Source: Natranaeroarchaeum aerophilus
GTDB taxonomy: Archaea; Halobacteriota; Halobacteria; Halobacteriales; Natronoarchaeaceae
NCBI RefSeq assembly: GCF_023638055.1
Contig: NZ_JAKRVY010000003.1
Span: forward strand, 124,001 to 188,000
Direction: 5' to 3'
Length of the DNA: 64,000 nt
Shown: positions 48,608 to 56,634 of the stretch, in pieces
Position numbering within the stretch: position 1 is the first letter of the stretch
How the letters are laid out: every line of letters begins with the position of its first letter
Program-made: the position numbers and the translations under genes
The notes under the pieces: generated by a model
What the model saw: only the letters and a program-made list of their open reading frames with translations
Told to the model about the DNA's origin: nothing
The model's database searches: none

Positions 48608-49303
48608 ATGGACGACAGTACCGCGGTCGTGACGGGTGCAACGAGTGGGATCGGCCGGGCGGTCGCCGCCGCCTGCGCGGACGAGGGCGCACACGTCGTC
48701 GCCTGTGCGCGCGATGCCGACGATATCGCCGACGTGGTAGCCAAAATCGAGTCCAGCGGGGGGACGGCAACCGGCGTTCGCGCCGACGTTCGTGACGAGT
48801 TCGACGCCGAACGTCTCGCCGAAACCGCCGCCCGGGTTGGCAATGATGGCATCGAGTACGTCTTCGCGAACGCCGGTGTGTTCCACGGGAGCCCCGGCGA
48901 CGAACCGATCGATGCGGAGAGCTACACCACCTACGACGACCATCTGCGAACGAACGGTAGAGGGGTCTTCGCGACGATCAAAGAGGCGAAGCCGCATCTG
49001 ACCGACACCGCCCGGGTGATCGTCCCGACCGGTTCGGTCGCCCGTGACGCGAAAGCGGGGATCGGCTCGTATGCGGTCTCGAAGGCGACCGCCGAGGCGA
49101 TCGCCCGCGCGTTCGCGGTGGATATCGAGCAGACCGTCGGCTGCGTCGATCCCGGACAGGTCGCCACGGATCTGTCGGGACCGGGCGGGCGTGATCCCGA
49201 AGATGTCGCGCCGATGTTCGTCTGGGCGGCGACAGAGGCCGATCCGGAGGAGCTAAACGGTGCGGTTCTCGGACTGCGTGAGTGGAAGATGGCGACGCGG
49301 TGA
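48608..49303 (+). CDS. Short-chain dehydrogenase/reductase
   Basis: A 231-residue SDR. The NAD(P) motif TGATSGIGRA (residues 9-18), the NAG motif (ANAGVF, about 94-99), the catalytic Ser in TGSVARDA and Tyr/Lys in YAVSK (about 157-161) are all in place. The acidic residues around the cofactor loop (ARDADD, with Arg after the second strand) suggest NADP. The substrate is unknown. The gene is a single unit divergent from tfx. Confidence 0.93.
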   Translation: MDDSTAVVTGATSGIGRAVAAACADEGAHVVACARDADDIADVVAKIESSGGTATGVRADVRDEFDAERLAETAARVGNDGIEYVFANAGVFHGSPGDEPIDAESYTTYDDHLRTNGRGVFATIKEAKPHLTDTARVIVPTGSVARDAKAGIGSYAVSKATAEAIARAFAVDIEQTVGCVDPGQVATDLSGPGGRDPEDVAPMFVWAATEADPEELNGAVLGLREWKMATR

Positions 49304-49316
49304 CTCACGCGCCGAC

Positions 49317-49940
49317 TCACAGCTCCCGGTCGCTGTCCGGGTTGTCCAGTTCCCAGAGGATTTCGGGGAGAAAGGCATCGAGTTCGTCGATGACGCGGCG
49401 CTCGCTGACATTCAGGCCCTCGCAGTGTTCGTGGGCCGAGTCGCGGATGTCGACGTGAAGCTCGCCGTCTTCGAGCGTCACCGCGAGCGGAAAGACCGAA
49501 CAGCGTGCGGGCTTCCAGTCGTGTTCGGCGTGGAGCGCACAGAGGCCGTCCTCGCGCAAGAAGTAACAGGCTGCACCGTCCTCGGCGACGTGCTCCTCGC
49601 GGTCTTTCTCCTCGCGCCGGACGAAATCGTGGCCGCGGAACTCCGTCGTCGACTCGTTGAGGTTTGCGCGCTCGGCGAGACCGAGAAAGTCACGGTCGTA
49701 CAGCAAGACGCCGTGCTGACAGCACCAGGTGCAGTCGTCGACACACTCGAACGTGAGGTCGGGATCGAACTCGACGATAACCTCGCGGTCGGGATACACC
49801 TCGACGCGCTGGCCCGTCTGATCGGTCGACACGAACACCCGTTCGGGCGGCGCAGCAAAAAGCGCGACGCATCCGGTACCGCGCCGCTCCGTGGCGACGA
49901 CCGTATCAGGACTCGAAGAGCGCGTGATCGTCGTCGACAT
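49317..49940 (-). CDS. YkgJ-type cysteine-cluster protein
   Basis: A 207-residue protein of the YkgJ/Fe-S or zinc-cysteine cluster family: DDCTWCCQHGV (C-x2-CC), CYFLREDGLCALH and ARCSVFPL give the conserved cysteines that bind a metal centre. Members are of unknown function; some are predicted metal chaperones. The start at 49940 overlaps cbiL by 35 bases, so it is probably the last gene of the COG0523-MoaB-CbiL operon. No alternative ATG exists before the first conserved block. Confidence 0.85.
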   Translation of the reverse strand: MSTTITRSSSPDTVVATERRGTGCVALFAAPPERVFVSTDQTGQRVEVYPDREVIVEFDPDLTFECVDDCTWCCQHGVLLYDRDFLGLAERANLNESTTEFRGHDFVRREEKDREEHVAEDGAACYFLREDGLCALHAEHDWKPARCSVFPLAVTLEDGELHVDIRDSAHEHCEGLNVSERRVIDELDAFLPEILWELDNPDSDREL

Positions 49941-50586
49941 CGGCCCGTTCGGCGTACGCCAGCGTATAGTAGTCTCGATCGGCTAGCTCGGTGGGATCGT
50001 CGGTGATCACCGTCTCGCCCTGTTCCATGAACAGCCGCCGACCATACGTGACCTCGTAGCCCGCATCGACGAGTTTCTCGTGGGTCACCGGCACGTCGGT
50101 CACTTTGAACAGGATCAGCCTGTCCGGGCCAACCGGCGCGTCGCCGCCGGACGCTTCCCGGAGCGTGAGCTCGCTTCCGGCGGCGATTTCGACGTCCAGC
50201 GCGGCCGCAAAGGCCGTTACTGAGCTCACGCCCGGCACGACCTCGACGTCGACTCCGGGATGGAACCGTTCGATGGTTCGTCGCAGGTGACCGAACGTCG
50301 AGTACACGTTGGGATCTCCAAGCGTAACAAACGCGGCATCGCCGTCCTCGGCCGTAGGTGCTACATCGGAAGCGGCCGACTTCCATGCCTGACGGAGCTC
50401 CGCCTCGTCCCGTGTCATCGGAAACTCGAGGTCGCCGATCCGGGACTCGGGGACGTGTTCGAGCGCGACCGATCGCGAGAGTCGTCCCGGCGTGTAGACG
50501 ACATCGACTTCATCCAGTACCTGCGCACCGCGGACCGTCAACAGGCCCGCGTCCCCGGGCCCGAGACCGACTCCGTACAGCGTCAT
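49906..50586 (-). CDS. cbiL: Cobalt-factor II C20-methyltransferase (CbiL)
   Basis: A 226-residue tetrapyrrole methyltransferase. It starts LYGVGLGPGDAGLLTVRGAQVL, the CbiL/CobI signature, and has the SAM loop FVTLGDPNVYSTFGHL near 85 and the central VVPGVSSVTAFAAALD near 124. CbiL methylates C20 of cobalt-precorrin-2 (cobalt-factor II) with SAM in anaerobic cobalamin synthesis. The other cobalamin genes are not near, so it has left the usual cbi cluster and joined an operon with two COG0523 metallochaperones and MoaB. Confidence 0.9.
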   Translation of the reverse strand: MTLYGVGLGPGDAGLLTVRGAQVLDEVDVVYTPGRLSRSVALEHVPESRIGDLEFPMTRDEAELRQAWKSAASDVAPTAEDGDAAFVTLGDPNVYSTFGHLRRTIERFHPGVDVEVVPGVSSVTAFAAALDVEIAAGSELTLREASGGDAPVGPDRLILFKVTDVPVTHEKLVDAGYEVTYGRRLFMEQGETVITDDPTELADRDYYTLAYAERADVDDDHALFES

Positions 50587-50671
50587 GTCGCGATCACCGC
50601 TGCAGTGTTTGCGTCCATCGTGTCATCCCTTCGGAGAGCTTGCCTCATGGAACTTCCGTGCCGGGTCGGCA

Positions 50672-51286
50672 TCACGGGTCGTCCTCGACGATCGCCCGTC
50701 CAGCAGGATCCGACATCTGGTGGCGTGTCGCCAGCCCGGCCAGATGCGGCGTTTCGGGAACGATCAGCGTCTCGGTCGCCAGCTCTACCGCGCTTGCGCT
50801 TCCGGGGAGACAGAAGATCGGAACGCCGTCTGCGATCCCGGCGAGCGCACGACTCGCCATTGCCCGCGTACCGACTTCCTCGTAGGAAAGCATACGGAAC
50901 AGCTCGCCGAACCCGCGGAGACGACGGTCGATCGTCGCCTGGACTGCGTCGGGTGTCACGTCGTCCGCAGTGACGCCGGTGCCGCCCGTGGTGATGATGG
51001 TATCGACGTCCTGTCGCGTCAGCAGGGACTCCAGCAGGTCTTCGATACGGTCAGCGTCGTCCGGGACCAGCGCGCGGGCGGTCACGCGATGGCCCGCGGA
51101 CTCGAAGGTCACTACTGCGGTGTCGCCGCCGGGGTCGTCGACCGTGGAGAGGGCGTCAGCGGGGTTGTGCTCGTCGTACCGGGAGGTCGAGACGGTGACG
51201 ACGGCGACGTACAGGGGATCGATGACGTCGTGACTGTGGTTGTCAGTACTACGGCGCCGGGAGCGGTCGACGTGGTCGCCCGTCAT
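50672..51286 (-). CDS. moaB: Molybdenum cofactor biosynthesis protein MoaB/Mog-type
   Basis: A 204-residue MoaB/Mog family protein that adenylates molybdopterin before metal insertion. It has the core TIITTGGTGVTADDVTPDAV (about 97-116), LSYEEVGTRAMASRALAG and PGSASAVELATE (substrate-binding loop). An N-terminal extension of about 25 polar residues is unusual. The ATG overlaps the stop of the upstream COG0523 gene by four bases, so expression is coupled with a metal-handling GTPase. Confidence 0.92.
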   Translation of the reverse strand: MTGDHVDRSRRRSTDNHSHDVIDPLYVAVVTVSTSRYDEHNPADALSTVDDPGGDTAVVTFESAGHRVTARALVPDDADRIEDLLESLLTRQDVDTIITTGGTGVTADDVTPDAVQATIDRRLRGFGELFRMLSYEEVGTRAMASRALAGIADGVPIFCLPGSASAVELATETLIVPETPHLAGLATRHQMSDPAGRAIVEDDP

Positions 51287-52569
51287 CGCTGACCCCGTAG
51301 CGCCGCCGGTCTGGTCGTTCGGGTACCGGAGCCGTCGATCACGAGCTCCTGACCCGTGCGCCGGGGGAACCGGTCGTCGTCCAGCCCCTCACGTTCGCCC
51401 TCACGGACCAGCGTCTCGTCGAGCGCGGCGGTGACCGCGGCCTCGTCAAGTCCCTTGCCGATGACGACCAGGCGGGTCTCGCGATCGCCGACGTCGGGGT
51501 CCCAGTCGAGATCGTCGCCGCGTCGGTAGATCTCCTGTCTGGACTCCGGGAGGCTGGCGATCCAGCGCCCTTCCGGGACGACTCGTGTCGCCGATCCCGC
51601 GAAACTGGCGGTGAAGGCGTGGCGATCCCGGCCTGCGACCCAGAGGATTCCCTTCATGCGAACGACGCTCGCGGGCAACGACTGGAGGCAGTCGACGAAC
51701 CGCCCCGGGTGGACCGGCCGGCGTCGGTGGTACGTAAACGAGTCCAGTCCGAACGCCTCCGGGGGATGCCTGTGGTCGTGGCCGTCGTGCGAGTGGTCAT
51801 CGTGGGAGTGATCGTGGTCGTCATGCGAGTGTTCCGTCCCACTCTCGGCGTTGTCACCGCCGTCAGCGTCGCGCAGGATCTGCTTCCACCCTGCCGAAGA
51901 CTGTGACTCGTCCTCGTCGAACAGCCCGGTGTCGAGAACGTCCTCCGGCGAGACGTCACCGTGGGTCGTCTCGTGGATCGTCGCGCGCGGCTGGAGGGAC
52001 CGAAGCGTCTCGGTGAGGGCCGCACGCTCGTCCTCGTCGACCAGATCGCACTTGTTGACCAGCAGGACGTCGGCGAGTTCGACCTGTTCGACGAGCAGTT
52101 CCGACAGGGGACGGCTCTCGTCGGCTTCGTCAGCCGCTCCGAGCGGCTGGCCCTCGAGTACTGCATCGTGGAACGTGCGGGCGTCGACGACCGTCACGAG
52201 GGCGTCGAGATCGTACCGGGGGGCGACCTGCGGCGAGCGGACGAATCGCTCGACGATCGGCGCGGGATCGCTCACGCCCGAGGGTTCGACCAGCAGGTGA
52301 TCGAACGACGATTTGCCGTCGAGTTCCAGCAAGGCGGCATCGAGTTCGCCCTGCAGACCACAGCAGATACAGCCGTTCGAGAGCTCTGTGAGCTCGGAGC
52401 CACCCGAAAGCTCCGAACGCGACTCGATGAGGTCGGCGTCGACGTTGACCTCGCCCATGTCGTTAACGAGGACGGCCACGTCACGATCGGCGTCGGTCAG
52501 CACGCGATTCACGAGCGTCGTCTTCCCCGCGCCGAGGCCGCCGCTGAGCAGGGTGACGGGGGTGGGCAT
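51283..52569 (-). CDS. COG0523/CobW-family GTPase with long His/Asp-rich loop
   Basis: A 428-residue G3E GTPase of the COG0523 (CobW/ZNG1/YjiA) family. P-loop GGLGAGKTT (about 9-17), metal-binding motif CICC (about 76-79), Walker B-like LVEPSG, and NKCD for guanine specificity are visible. A loop near 245-265 consists almost entirely of His and Asp, a metal-sequestering segment. The C-terminal CobW domain follows, with VVRMKGILWVAGRD. These proteins load Zn, Co or other metals onto target proteins. It overlaps the second COG0523 gene by one base and moaB by four. Confidence 0.93.
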   Translation of the reverse strand: MPTPVTLLSGGLGAGKTTLVNRVLTDADRDVAVLVNDMGEVNVDADLIESRSELSGGSELTELSNGCICCGLQGELDAALLELDGKSSFDHLLVEPSGVSDPAPIVERFVRSPQVAPRYDLDALVTVVDARTFHDAVLEGQPLGAADEADESRPLSELLVEQVELADVLLVNKCDLVDEDERAALTETLRSLQPRATIHETTHGDVSPEDVLDTGLFDEDESQSSAGWKQILRDADGGDNAESGTEHSHDDHDHSHDDHSHDGHDHRHPPEAFGLDSFTYHRRRPVHPGRFVDCLQSLPASVVRMKGILWVAGRDRHAFTASFAGSATRVVPEGRWIASLPESRQEIYRRGDDLDWDPDVGDRETRLVVIGKGLDEAAVTAALDETLVREGEREGLDDDRFPRRTGQELVIDGSGTRTTRPAALRGQR

Positions 52570-53777
52570 CAGTCGTCGGCCAGCGCCAGTTCGCGCTGGT
52601 CGTCGGTCCCGAACGGATCCGGGAACCCGGTCCAGTCCTCGTCCATCTCGGCGTCGGTGAGCACGCACTCTTCCAGAGAGTCGATGAGCGGGTCGGCATC
52701 GAACTCCCGGCCGATGAAGACGAGTTCGGTGCCACGGTCGCCCCACTGTTCGTCCCAGTCCTCTTCGATACCGGGACGCGCCTGGAAATACCGTTCCTGC
52801 TGGGCGGGCGGCAAGGCGGCGATCCACTGTCCCGCCGGTCCTGCTCGAACCGACGTGCCGGCCTTGTCGATCCCCATCGCGACGTCCTCGCGGCCCGCAC
52901 TCCAGAAAAAGCCCTTCGCACGGATGATCTGGTCGGGGAGCTCGGCGAGCAGGTCGGCGATCCGCTCGGGATGGAACGGACGGTCCGCCTCGAAGGTAAA
53001 GGAGGTTACGCCGTGTTCTTCCTGTGGGTCGTGATGGTGATCGTGGTTGAGTTCGTGTTTCCAGCCGGCGGACTGGCTGGCGGCGTCGAAGTCGAACAGG
53101 CCGGTATCGAGGATCCGTCCTGGATCGATATTCCCGTGTTCGGTTCGGATGATCTCCGCGCGGGGCTGGAGCCGTTCGAGCACGGCCTCAATCTCGTCGA
53201 GCGCGTCCGCGGGCACGAGATCGCACTTGTTGAGCAAGAGGACGTCACAGAACTCGATCTGGTCGAGCAGTGCCTCCTCGGGAACACGACCGTCTTCCGG
53301 GCTGAGCTCGTCGGCTGTCAGCGCCGCTCCGGAATCGAAGGCCTCGTAGAAGCTGTGTGCGTTGACGACCGTGACCGTCGTGTCGAGTTCGTAGGTACCC
53401 GTGGGATCGAACTCGGTGTCCTCGAACCCGCGAGCGAACGTCTGTGCGACCGGGATCGGTTCGCTGATCCCCGAGGACTCGACCAGCAGGTAGTCGAAGT
53501 CACGGAGCTCGGCGAGGCGGCCGACTTCCTCGAGCATGTCGCCGCGCAGCCGACAGCAGATACAGCCGTTCGACATCTCGATGATCTCCTCGTCGCCCTC
53601 CGAGAGCTCCGATTGCTGTTCGACCAGTTCGGCGTCAACGTTGATCTCGCCCATATCGTTGACGACCACGGCGACGTCGAGGCCGTGCTCCTCGTTGAGA
53701 ACGGTGTTGAGCGTCGTTGTCTTGCCCGCACCGAGGCTACCGCTAAGTATCGTGACGGGAATCGGTGAGTCTGTCAT
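52569..53777 (-). CDS. COG0523/CobW-family GTPase
   Basis: A 402-residue COG0523 GTPase, first gene of the operon. It has P-loop GSLGAGKTTTLN (about 11-22), CICC (about 79), NKCDLVP and a C-terminal CobW domain with IIRAKGFFWSAGRED. A short His cluster (NHDHHHDPQEEH) sits at the position of the longer loop in its neighbour, so the two are paralogues that diverged in metal capacity. Start 53777 (MTDSPIPVT) is preferred; upstream lies a promoter with an inverted repeat shared with a NikR-like gene, suggesting metal-dependent control. Confidence 0.93.
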   Translation of the reverse strand: MTDSPIPVTILSGSLGAGKTTTLNTVLNEEHGLDVAVVVNDMGEINVDAELVEQQSELSEGDEEIIEMSNGCICCRLRGDMLEEVGRLAELRDFDYLLVESSGISEPIPVAQTFARGFEDTEFDPTGTYELDTTVTVVNAHSFYEAFDSGAALTADELSPEDGRVPEEALLDQIEFCDVLLLNKCDLVPADALDEIEAVLERLQPRAEIIRTEHGNIDPGRILDTGLFDFDAASQSAGWKHELNHDHHHDPQEEHGVTSFTFEADRPFHPERIADLLAELPDQIIRAKGFFWSAGREDVAMGIDKAGTSVRAGPAGQWIAALPPAQQERYFQARPGIEEDWDEQWGDRGTELVFIGREFDADPLIDSLEECVLTDAEMDEDWTGFPDPFGTDDQRELALADD

Positions 53778-53804
53778 TGGTCCGTGCAGGTTTAACAATT
53801 CGGA

Positions 53805-53834
53805 GGGACTTAATATTAGTTATTCGCTAATTGT
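53805..53834. promoter_or_regulatory. Shared promoter of COG0523 operon and NikR-like gene with inverted repeat
   Basis: The inverted repeat ATTAG-N7-CTAAT (53815-53831) lies in an 82-base gap between two divergent genes. The minus-strand TATA (TATTAAGT, about 53809-53816) for the COG0523 operon abuts it. For the plus gene the CTAATTG stretch is the best TATA candidate, so the repeat covers both promoters. Binding by the adjacent NikR-like protein is a reasonable guess. Confidence 0.45.
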
Positions 53835-53859
53835 GACCTTCATCATAACAACCACTATT

Positions 53860-54312
53860 ATGCCCCGTCACAAAGGCCCAGATATGCCGGTCGTAAGCAT
53901 CTCGCTCCCGGAGGAACTGCTGGAATCCGTCGACAGTTTCGCCGAGGAACAGGGCTACACGGGACGAAGCGAAGTGTTCAGACAGAGCGTCCGCGGCCTA
54001 CTCGGCGAGTTCGACGAGTCCGAACTCCGGGGTCGGGAGCTGATGGGGACCGTCACCGTGCTGTTCGAGTACGGGAGTTCGGGCGTCGAAAACGAGGTGA
54101 CCCACCTGCGTCACGAGTACGAATCGCTGATCGTCTCGAACGTCCACGGTCACGTCGGCGAGCGCTACTGTATGGAGCTGTTCGTCATCGAAGGGGGGCT
54201 GGAGGACGTCTCCGAAGTCGTCTCCAGCGTCCGGACGGTCGACGGCGTACTGACTGTCGATTACTCGCTTCAGCCGATCGACGATGTCGGCGGTATCGCC
54301 AGTCCGTCCTGA
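53860..54312 (+). CDS. NikR-like ribbon-helix-helix metalloregulator
   Basis: A 150-residue regulator (142 if started at the second ATG, 53884). The N-terminal ribbon-helix-helix (VSISLPEELLESVDSFAEEQGYTGRSEVFRQSVRGLL) is followed by a NikR-type ACT-fold domain. The metal site is conserved: a His in THLRHEY and the motif H-x-H-x5-C (VHGHVGERYC), matching nickel ligands His87, His89 and Cys95 of Escherichia coli NikR. It sits divergent to the COG0523 operon. Nickel is inferred by family, cobalt or zinc remain possible. Confidence 0.9.
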   Translation: MPRHKGPDMPVVSISLPEELLESVDSFAEEQGYTGRSEVFRQSVRGLLGEFDESELRGRELMGTVTVLFEYGSSGVENEVTHLRHEYESLIVSNVHGHVGERYCMELFVIEGGLEDVSEVVSSVRTVDGVLTVDYSLQPIDDVGGIASPS

Positions 54313-54315
54313 CGG

Positions 54316-54705
54316 TCAGAGATTGCGCAAGGAGAGCAGTTTGACACGCCCGACGCCGTCGAAATCCCGGAGATCGTAGACGAGTTCTCGGATCCGTGCC
54401 ACTTCGCCCCGACAGAATACCGTCTCCAGGCACCACTCTCCCTCGTGGACGTGACTGGTCGCACTGATGGCGTCCTGATACTGGTGTTGAATCCCGTGGA
54501 GTTCACGGATCACCTCCTCGTGCTCGTAATCGAAGACGATCACCGCCGCTACGGATCCCGACATCTCCTCCAGTTTCGAGTGGGCTTCGACGTACTCCTG
54601 GATCGCTTCCCGGACCGCCCGCGAGCGGGAATCGAATCCTTCGGCCTGCCAGACGGCGTCGAACTCGGCGAGCACGTCGTCGGGAATGTTCAGACTCGTT
54701 CGCAT
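54316..54705 (-). CDS. Second NikR-like ribbon-helix-helix regulator
   Basis: A 129-residue paralogue of NikR. Ribbon-helix-helix at 1-45 (MRTSLNIPDDVLAEFDAVWQ) and ACT-type domain with SHVHEGEWCLETVFCRG. The His-x-His pair and Cys are present but with four residues instead of five before Cys, so metal preference may differ from the neighbour. It converges on the first NikR-like gene with only three bases between the stops. Its own promoter is downstream of the TATA-poor region at 54715-54740. Confidence 0.87.
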   Translation of the reverse strand: MRTSLNIPDDVLAEFDAVWQAEGFDSRSRAVREAIQEYVEAHSKLEEMSGSVAAVIVFDYEHEEVIRELHGIQHQYQDAISATSHVHEGEWCLETVFCRGEVARIRELVYDLRDFDGVGRVKLLSLRNL

Positions 54706-54889
54706 ACACGTTGATGGGTCCGAACAGTGTTAGGGCCTGTCGTTTTTTCGGTGTCCTACCCGTCAGCGAGCCAGAGTGTACCATGTGTCAGTGTGCAAGC
54801 GGTAATAATACACGTACTAGGAAAATCGAGGCATTGTATACATATGAACCTAAGTTTATATTCGAGTTCCCCATTAGTAACAGATACGC

Positions 54890-55072
54890 ATGAGCCAGAG
54901 CGCCTCAACAACGTGGACGGACCCTTCGACCTGCCCGTTTTGCGACGCCGAACTCGCCGATCCCGGCGCGGGATTCGTCGATCATATTCACACGAGTACC
55001 GAGTGCAAGAGCGAGTTTGACACCTGGCGCTCGAATATTGCGGGCGATATGGGGGGTGAGTGGAGCGGATGA
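54890..55072 (+). CDS. Small zinc-finger protein (DUF7501-like)
   Basis: A 60-residue acidic protein with CPFCDAEL near residue 15 and HIHTSTEC near 32, giving a Cys-x2-Cys ... His-x-His/Cys zinc-finger pattern. It ends GGEWSG. I recall closely similar small proteins throughout haloarchaea without assigned function. The TATA-like gtttata at about 54853 lies 37 bases before the ATG. It overlaps the next gene by four bases (ATGA), so the pair is a small operon. Confidence 0.75.
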   Translation: MSQSASTTWTDPSTCPFCDAELADPGAGFVDHIHTSTECKSEFDTWRSNIAGDMGGEWSG

Positions 55073-55302
55073 GTCTCGGACGTACCACCGCGTCGACGCA
55101 CACGCCGACGCCGATTCCGAGCGAGATCGAAGCGCCGACGGCCAAGCTCGTCTACATGACACTCGACGCCGACGGCCCCCACACTATCGACGAGCTGAGC
55201 GACCGGCTGAACATGCAGAAACTGGTGCTGTTGGAGACGCTCCGAACGCTCGAATCGAAAGGGATCGTCGATGCCAACGGCGAGTGCTGTACCGCAAACT
55301 AG
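55069..55302 (+). CDS. Small winged-helix (MarR/TrmB-like) DNA-binding protein
   Basis: A 77-residue protein with a single winged-helix domain: APTAKLVYMTLDADGPHTIDELSDRLNMQKLVLLETLRTLESKGIV covers helices 1-3 and the beginning of the wing. The wing ends with GECCTAN, two adjacent cysteines at the C-terminus. Start 55069 (MSLGRTTAS) overlaps the stop of the preceding zinc-finger gene, indicating translational coupling; the two may act together. Target genes are unknown. Confidence 0.8.
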   Translation: MSLGRTTASTHTPTPIPSEIEAPTAKLVYMTLDADGPHTIDELSDRLNMQKLVLLETLRTLESKGIVDANGECCTAN

Positions 55303-55458
55303 CGACCGAACACTGGCGCTCTCCTTTTGATGGCAGCGTGGGAACTCCCGTGCCCGCCAGCGGATATTGCGGCTGACTGCCAGGCGACGAATCACATACA
55401 AGCCCCCGATCATCGAGTGGCGACAATTGTTAAGTTTGTTCGCCGGTTGGTTGCGGGT

Positions 55459-56634
55459 ATGGAACGACGACGATTTCTCGCCGCCGGTGGTGTCGGTGCA
55501 AGTGGCCTGTTGGCTGGCTGTACCGACGTGCTCGGTGACGACGATTCGGTCCCCGAGCGCGACCCCGCAAACGAAGTTGCCGACAGCATTGCGACCGCGG
55601 TCGGACTGACGAATACGGCTGCCCTGTCACTCGACAGCGTCGACACCGGTTTCGAGGAACCGGACACAATCGAGTTTGACGAGGACGAACCCCGCGACCG
55701 GCTTACCGAGGCCCGAACTGCGCTTGAGGACGCCGAAGCCGACGACGACGGAAGCCGTGAAACAGAGATCGCAGCCGTCCGTGCGTACATCGGAATCGTC
55801 GAGTCAATGATCGATATGTTCGTCGAGCTGCTCGACGGTGCGTCCGAACTCTCGGACTCCGACGAGTCGTTCGACCCCGACGATATTGATCGACTCCGCG
55901 GGAGTATCACCGCGGCGCGTGATCCGATCGAACGGGCGGTGAGTGCGCGGACGGCGGGCTCCGAGCACCGCGATTCGGCAGACGAGTCAGCGCTGACCGA
56001 CCTCGACGCCGAGTTCAAGACCGTTACCGACGGGTTCGACGAACTCGTCTCCTTTACCGACGGCTTCGACGTGCTAACCACGGGGTACGCTACGCTGCTC
56101 GATGGAGTCGAGTACGTCGAGACCGCACAGGATCAGTTCAGTGCCGAGGAGTACGACGATGCGCGCGTTGGGTTCGCCGATGCGACCGCGGCGTTCGACA
56201 CGGCAAATTCGACGTTTTCCGACGGTCAGTCCGACGCTCACGAGGAACTCGACGGAGAATTCGATCGGGCGACCGGCCGCAGCGATTCGCTCATTCGCCT
56301 GTCATCGAGCCACGAGTCGATGCTCGATGGGCGAGAGCTGCTGGAAGACGGCAAAGAGGAGTTCGAAAACGAAGAGTTCGGGGCCGCAAGCGCTGCGTTC
56401 TCCGGGGCACAGGAGGAGTTCACAGCAGCATCCGAAGAACTCGACGCAGAGCCACAGCCAGAAGGAGAGTTCGACGCGGAGTTCAATCAGGCCCAGTGTC
56501 GTGCCGACAATCTCGGTGAGGCCGCCGACGAGTTCGCGGCGGCGGCCGACGCTGCCGATCAGGGCAACTTCATCGAGGCGGACCAGCGGTTCGAGAACGG
56601 CGAAGACGCGCTCGAAGCAGCCGAAAACTGCTAG
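55459..56634 (+). CDS. Tat lipoprotein with helical repeats
   Basis: A 391-residue exported lipoprotein (RRRFLAAG and lipobox LAGC, Cys at about 20). The mature chain is acidic and predominantly helical. Segments of about 60-80 residues recur with F-x2-A-x3-F spacing, for example AQDQFSAEEYDDARVGFADATAAF and GKEEFENEEFGAASAAFSGAQEEF. These look like tetratricopeptide-type or spectrin-like helical repeats. No enzyme motif is present. Start 55459 is set by the Tat motif, although longer in-frame starts exist upstream. Confidence 0.78.
   Translation: MERRRFLAAGGVGASGLLAGCTDVLGDDDSVPERDPANEVADSIATAVGLTNTAALSLDSVDTGFEEPDTIEFDEDEPRDRLTEARTALEDAEADDDGSRETEIAAVRAYIGIVESMIDMFVELLDGASELSDSDESFDPDDIDRLRGSITAARDPIERAVSARTAGSEHRDSADESALTDLDAEFKTVTDGFDELVSFTDGFDVLTTGYATLLDGVEYVETAQDQFSAEEYDDARVGFADATAAFDTANSTFSDGQSDAHEELDGEFDRATGRSDSLIRLSSSHESMLDGRELLEDGKEEFENEEFGAASAAFSGAQEEFTAASEELDAEPQPEGEFDAEFNQAQCRADNLGEAADEFAAAADAADQGNFIEADQRFENGEDALEAAENC

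Follow-up and report, generated by a model that had tools for sequence, protein, structure and literature searches.

A conserved haloarchaeal operon of COG0523 GTPases with a private NikR-type operator and an orphan CbiL

A tight cluster of metal-related genes in a haloarchaeal genome raises the question of which metal it handles, and of what a cobalamin-type methyltransferase, CbiL, is doing in it. In the window, by which we mean the whole 64,000-nucleotide stretch that was analyzed, profile searches (hmmscan) and coordinates place G3E1, G3E2, MoaB, CbiL and a CxxCxxCC protein in one minus-strand run with two NikR-like regulators at its head. The features are the following:

49317-49832 (with GTG start), minus strand: CxxCxxCC (YkgJ-type) protein; weak PF03692 match, 26.3 versus 23 bits
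49906-50586, minus strand: CbiL, cobalt-factor II C20-methyltransferase family; NF004063 419 bits, cut-off 235
50672-51286, minus strand: MoaB paralog (MoCF_biosynth); PF00994 105.7 bits
51283-52569, minus strand: G3E2, second COG0523 GTPase; PF02492 163.6 bits plus CobW_C
52569-53777, minus strand: G3E1, first operon gene, ZigA-like COG0523 GTPase; PF02492 171.7 bits, CobW_C 81 bits
53809-53859, no strand: putative inverted-repeat operator between G3E1 and NikR1
53884-54312, plus strand: NikR1, RHH_1 plus NikR_C (68.7 bits); divergent from the operon
54316-54705, minus strand: NikR2, RHH_1 plus NikR_C (76.7 bits); tail-to-tail with NikR1, on the operon strand

These searches confirm the gene block and families that a first-pass annotation had named from the sequence alone (two COG0523/G3E proteins, MoaB, CbiL, a YkgJ-type protein and two NikR-like regulators), and the coordinates reproduce most of the spacing it described, with a 1-base overlap at 52569, a 4-base overlap at 51283-51286 and an 85-base gap at 50587-50671. 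Its 35-base overlap between CbiL and the YkgJ-type gene, which depends on an ATG at 49940, is a start-codon artefact, since the gene call in the sister species does not support that start; the gene there begins with GTG and encodes 171 amino acids, and the matching start here, 49832, leaves a 73-base gap.

The block is a widely conserved haloarchaeal metal-chaperone operon. Orthologs of G3E1 with 65 to 79% identity are present in ∼76 of 392 genomes of the order besides its own genus, and we compared 55 distinct related loci, for which the denominators vary with the available flanks. NikR1 is divergent in 48 of 55 loci, G3E2 lies next to G3E1 in 49 of 51, and MoaB is downstream of G3E1 in 44 of 51; NikR2 (near G3E1 in 20/46) and a NifU-like scaffold (15/51) are less constant companions. 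Neighborhood conservation had been suggested as a check on the unit, and because the gene order recurs across dozens of genomes, spread over many families, the arrangement is more than chance. Two of the five genes are not part of the fixed set: the YkgJ-type gene is confined to this genus (2/51 loci), and CbiL is facultative, being recorded in 25/51 loci, a figure that is too high because part of the loci were retrieved through CbiL itself. In the sister species (G006) the block recurs with 86 to 96% protein identity but without CbiL between MoaB and the YkgJ-type gene.

Annotated plasmid records from Haloarcula, Halorubrum, Halocatena, Halovenus and Natrinema surround the operon with a metal island of varying completeness that includes CbiMNQO and further NikR-like genes, ZnuABC, Nik-type ABC transporters, a third G3E and an FAD/NAD(P)-binding protein. 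The metal transporters seen near the operon in these relatives are not found at this locus; the genome does have a third G3E (C2:418092), with an FAD/NAD(P)-binding gene diverging from it. In the Natrialbaceae the operon core is chromosomal, next to the gene for the CCA-adding enzyme and other conserved housekeeping genes, and the additional genes that separate G3E2 from MoaB or follow MoaB match DUF6498 or have no Pfam match. One Haloarcula plasmid record (G347:C3) carries the operon twice with identical G3E1 scores (L139 and L140), which may reflect either a true duplication or the assembly. The transporters and third G3E alongside the operon in relatives suggest a role in the allocation of zinc, cobalt or nickel. 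This much of the earlier metal-allocation reading stands, while a B12 role for CbiL within it is doubtful. Our literature search recovered no paper that combines COG0523 with haloarchaea, and the titles, abstracts and passages on NikR and CbiL that it returned contain no description of this operon.

The finding that stands out is an orphan, constrained CbiL within an operon that bears a private NikR-type operator. The operon copy is the only CbiL in its genome, its frame is intact, and it scores above the NF004063 family cut-off. A search for CbiC and TP-methylase markers in the haloarchaeal source genome (G000; 3.29 Mb, 32 contigs, 98% complete) found neither CbiC nor other corrin-ring methylases, so that by these markers the rest of the corrin pathway expected around a cobalamin CbiL is absent; the three TP-methylases present are a uroporphyrinogen-III methyltransferase, diphthine synthase and the operon CbiL, compared with eight in the sister species. 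At least eight further genomes carry an intact operon CbiL without CbiC. These are G173, G230 (Halorubrum sp. 48-1-W) and G099, together with Hrr. kocurii, Hrr. alkaliphilum, Halostagnicola sp. A56, Natronosalvus hydrolyticus and a Natrialbaceae MAG, with the absences in the named species resting on draft genomes; in G173 and G230 there is one TP-methylase more, yet still no CbiC. Both the operon CbiL and CbiC are present in Hrr. tebenquichense, Hrr. californiense and three Halorientalis species, and CbiC was found in all seven of the main-cluster CbiL genomes searched.

The operon copies are under constraint, with pairwise dN/dS of 0.11 to 0.27, a range in which many pairs involve lineages that still make corrin; for Natronosalvus and the Natrialbaceae MAG, both without CbiC, the ratio is 0.11 at a dS of 1.11. 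Compared with the main-cluster haloarchaeal CbiL (HVO_B0061; PMC8305020), they belong to the same family, and the operon clade retains 93 of 106 main-type invariant residues, but they sit with G3Es, often in the absence of CbiC, and mostly lack the C-terminal tail. Since intact copies persist without CbiC here and in at least eight other genomes, and dN/dS among operon copies is low, CbiL in this genome probably has a function other than B12 synthesis. Of the two genes that the first-pass annotation had assigned to metal cofactor synthesis, MoaB likely keeps that role, whereas CbiL probably stands outside cobalamin synthesis in a genome where the corrin markers searched for are absent.

A somewhat unlikely alternative is that CbiL is a passenger or relic, acquired by horizontal transfer or left behind after loss of the corrin pathway, and that the operon works through the G3Es and MoaB alone. 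It would fit the absence of CbiL from the sister species and many loci and its truncation or breakage in G312, G092, G063, G251, G338 and G377 (also L244), from which we conclude that CbiL is dispensable and its loss recurrent; in G312 and G092 the broken gene coincides with absence of CbiC. In the CbiL tree the copy studied here groups among main-pathway copies (80/91), as expected of a relic, but the other nine operon copies form one separate clade (95/96), and a single clade of all ten is not rejected (AU p 0.417). Intact frames and the low dN/dS values, including pairs in which both members lack CbiC, also argue against a passenger. Independent capture of a main-pathway cbiL, which the 80/91 placement suggests, was set aside in view of the same AU result, and a search of the 85-base leader found no cbiT remnant, which counts against such a capture as well.

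The two GTPases bear on the choice of metal. Both G3E proteins have the CobW nucleotide-binding domain and CobW_C expected of COG0523, with a Walker A motif (GSLGAGKTT/GGLGAGKTT) and NGCICC at the CxCC position. The His-rich loops ascribed to both are long in G3E2 and merely short in G3E1 (HDHHHD). Against the zinc chaperone ZigA model (NF038288) they score 422 and 303 bits, below the cut-off of 600, and against the CobW model (TIGR02475) 131 and 127 bits, below the cut-off of 332, so that for each protein the ZigA score is far above the CobW score. The G3E fold, GCICC motif and His-rich loop are shared with the bacterial ZigA/YciC-type COG0523 proteins covered in passages of Haas et al. (2009; PMC2770081), as are a position near ZnuABC in relatives and a paralog near S14/HisI paralogs. 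The haloarchaeal system differs in falling below the ZigA equivalog cut-off, in having a NikR-like regulator and no Zur, and in its tandem G3Es with MoaB and CbiL. The same passages report archaea without a recognizable Zur and, in Methanosarcina, a predicted DtxR-like ZntR instead of a NikR-like regulator, and they hold no description of this operon. In bacteria, S14 and HisI paralogs are a classic mark of zinc starvation (PMC2770081). On a Haloferax gibbonsii plasmid (L169:8057-13278), a G3E3-type gene sits beside a ribosomal protein S14 paralog with HisI nearby and a metal ABC transporter ∼9 kb away, which looks like an archaeal zinc-starvation set.

The low CobW scores also weigh on the quite unlikely possibility of a plain cobalt/B12 operon, in which the G3Es would be CobW-type cobalt chaperones, CbiL would serve cobalamin and NikR would sense cobalt or nickel. 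The strong family assignment of CbiL, CbiMNQO near the operon in relatives and the corrin pathway in some carriers speak for it, and CobW, the cobalt chaperone of late-insertion B12 synthesis, is likewise a GTPase of this family with B12-pathway genes as neighbors. However, CbiC and most TP-methylases are missing here, as is CbiC in the other intact-CbiL carriers listed above; haloarchaea insert cobalt early (PMC8305020), and the early route uses no CobW chaperone (PMC10206600).

NikR1 and NikR2 had been described as NikR-type regulators, and both indeed combine an RHH domain with NikR_C and have the full set of His-His-His-Cys ligands. In NikR1, aligned to the solved NikR structures 2bj1 and 1q5v, the ligands follow the pattern H-x10-H-x-H-x5-C, and they are retained in most operon orthologs; NikR2 has one residue fewer in the loop that precedes the Cys, an arrangement found in 18 of 22 of its homologs, and so does the NikR1 of the Natrialbaceae. 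We call them NikR-like because they score below the NCBIfam NikR cut-off of 111 (at most 86.7 for NikR1 and 104.3 for NikR2). They could sense nickel or cobalt instead of zinc. That this is instead a nickel operon, with NikR1 and NikR2 as nickel repressors and G3Es that supply nickel for urease as UreG and HypB do, is very unlikely, for although the full ligand sets and a genome with urease and four NikR_C genes would suit it, urease is encoded elsewhere together with a UreG of its own and a genuine NikR that passes the cut-off which NikR1 and NikR2 miss (126 versus 111), and the G3Es score best with ZigA.

Next to the urease operon of this genome (G000:C2:449000-459000; L232) lies a ZnuA-like ABC transporter that has a His-rich loop; annotation would call it a zinc transporter, but it possibly carries nickel. 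Other NikR-like genes lie by CbiMNQO or an NMT1-type ABC transporter in relatives (L164:14551-14958 and equivalents in L165, L168, L169, L139 and L144); their third ligand is Cys in place of His (H-H-C) and the loop that leads to the next Cys is longer, a pattern that suggests a metal preference different from that of NikR1.

Between NikR1 and G3E1 lies an inverted repeat with the consensus AWTAGTATYTGTTAT-N21-ATAAYTARYATTWA (core GTTAT-N21-ATAAY), derived from 32 homologous intergenic regions and placed at a fixed distance from G3E1. The E. coli NikR operator reads GTATGA-N16-TCATAC. In relation to the NikR proteins of E. coli (1q5v) and P. horikoshii (2bj1), the domains, ligands and two-half-site inverted-repeat operator are alike, but here the scores fall below the NikR cut-offs, the predicted operator has a different sequence and spacing, and its target is a chaperone operon. 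The predicted site scores 45.6 at 53809-53859 and is the sole match in the window. A whole-genome pattern search gave one exact match, at NikR1/G3E1, with all others carrying two mismatches and no commoner than in a reversed control; this argues for a local, autoregulated operon. A motif scan of the islands in relatives found no operator before znu, cbiM or nik genes. A Zur-type regulator would share its operator among znuABC and other zinc genes, whereas these sites occur at NikR1/G3E1 alone and are not common to the znuABC or cbiM promoters of relatives, which argues against a global zinc regulon. A regulon-wide operator was thus rejected from the scans of relatives' islands and of this genome, and NikR1 most likely regulates just itself and this operon. 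No known RNA element, including the cobalamin riboswitch, was found at gathering thresholds in 49000-55500.

The MoaB paralog scores below the MoaB equivalog cut-off (TIGR02667, 145.5 versus 222 bits) and above that of the domain model (TIGR00177, 114 versus 85 bits), and motifs such as TTGGTG line up with those of solved MoaB. The genome has a second MoaB, 56% identical to this one, at G000:C1:444766, and in G173 and G099 there is no MoaB match other than the operon copy. With motifs intact and this sole occurrence in two genomes, the operon copy is likely a real MoaB.

Our model as a whole, to which we give an even chance of being right, is a haloarchaeal metal-allocation operon repressed by NikR1, in which the G3Es deliver a scarce metal and CbiL has a non-B12 role. 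Metal-bound NikR1 would occupy the inverted repeat and repress its own gene and G3E1, and shortage of the metal, most likely zinc and possibly cobalt or nickel, would free the operator of NikR1. Client proteins would then receive the scarce metal from G3E1 and G3E2, which would depend on GTP for the delivery, and the co-transcribed MoaB would serve molybdenum cofactor as a functional second copy. CbiL would C20-methylate sirohydrochlorin or a metal complex of it, not for B12 in this genome, and would either yield a side product or clear the heme/siroheme route of mis-metallated sirohydrochlorin. In haloarchaea, siroheme is an intermediate on the way to heme, and B12 synthesis takes up its cobalt early (PMC8305020), so that sirohydrochlorin should be at hand even where the corrin pathway is missing; in a cell that lacks the later corrin enzymes, the CbiL product cannot become B12. 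This product may be a metal-binding end product or a route out of the heme path for wrongly metallated sirohydrochlorin. A bolder version, which we think unlikely, is that in archaea unable to make B12 a C20-methylated (metallo)sirohydrochlorin is the end product of the operon, and that this compound, under the control of a NikR-type switch, serves to hold, carry or dispose of zinc, cobalt or nickel.

For zinc sensing and sharing in haloarchaea, the locus offers a candidate in a NikR-like regulator with a well-defined predicted operator before zinc-type GTPases. If the orphan CbiL is active, it would be a B12 enzyme used outside B12, and in haloarchaea the presence of cbiL by itself would say little about B12 synthesis. 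Beside NikR2, the plus strand of the window encodes a 59-amino-acid open reading frame (54890-55069) with a zinc-finger-like CPFC...H...C pattern that is kept in the sister species, followed by a TrmB-like gene (55060-55302, plus strand).
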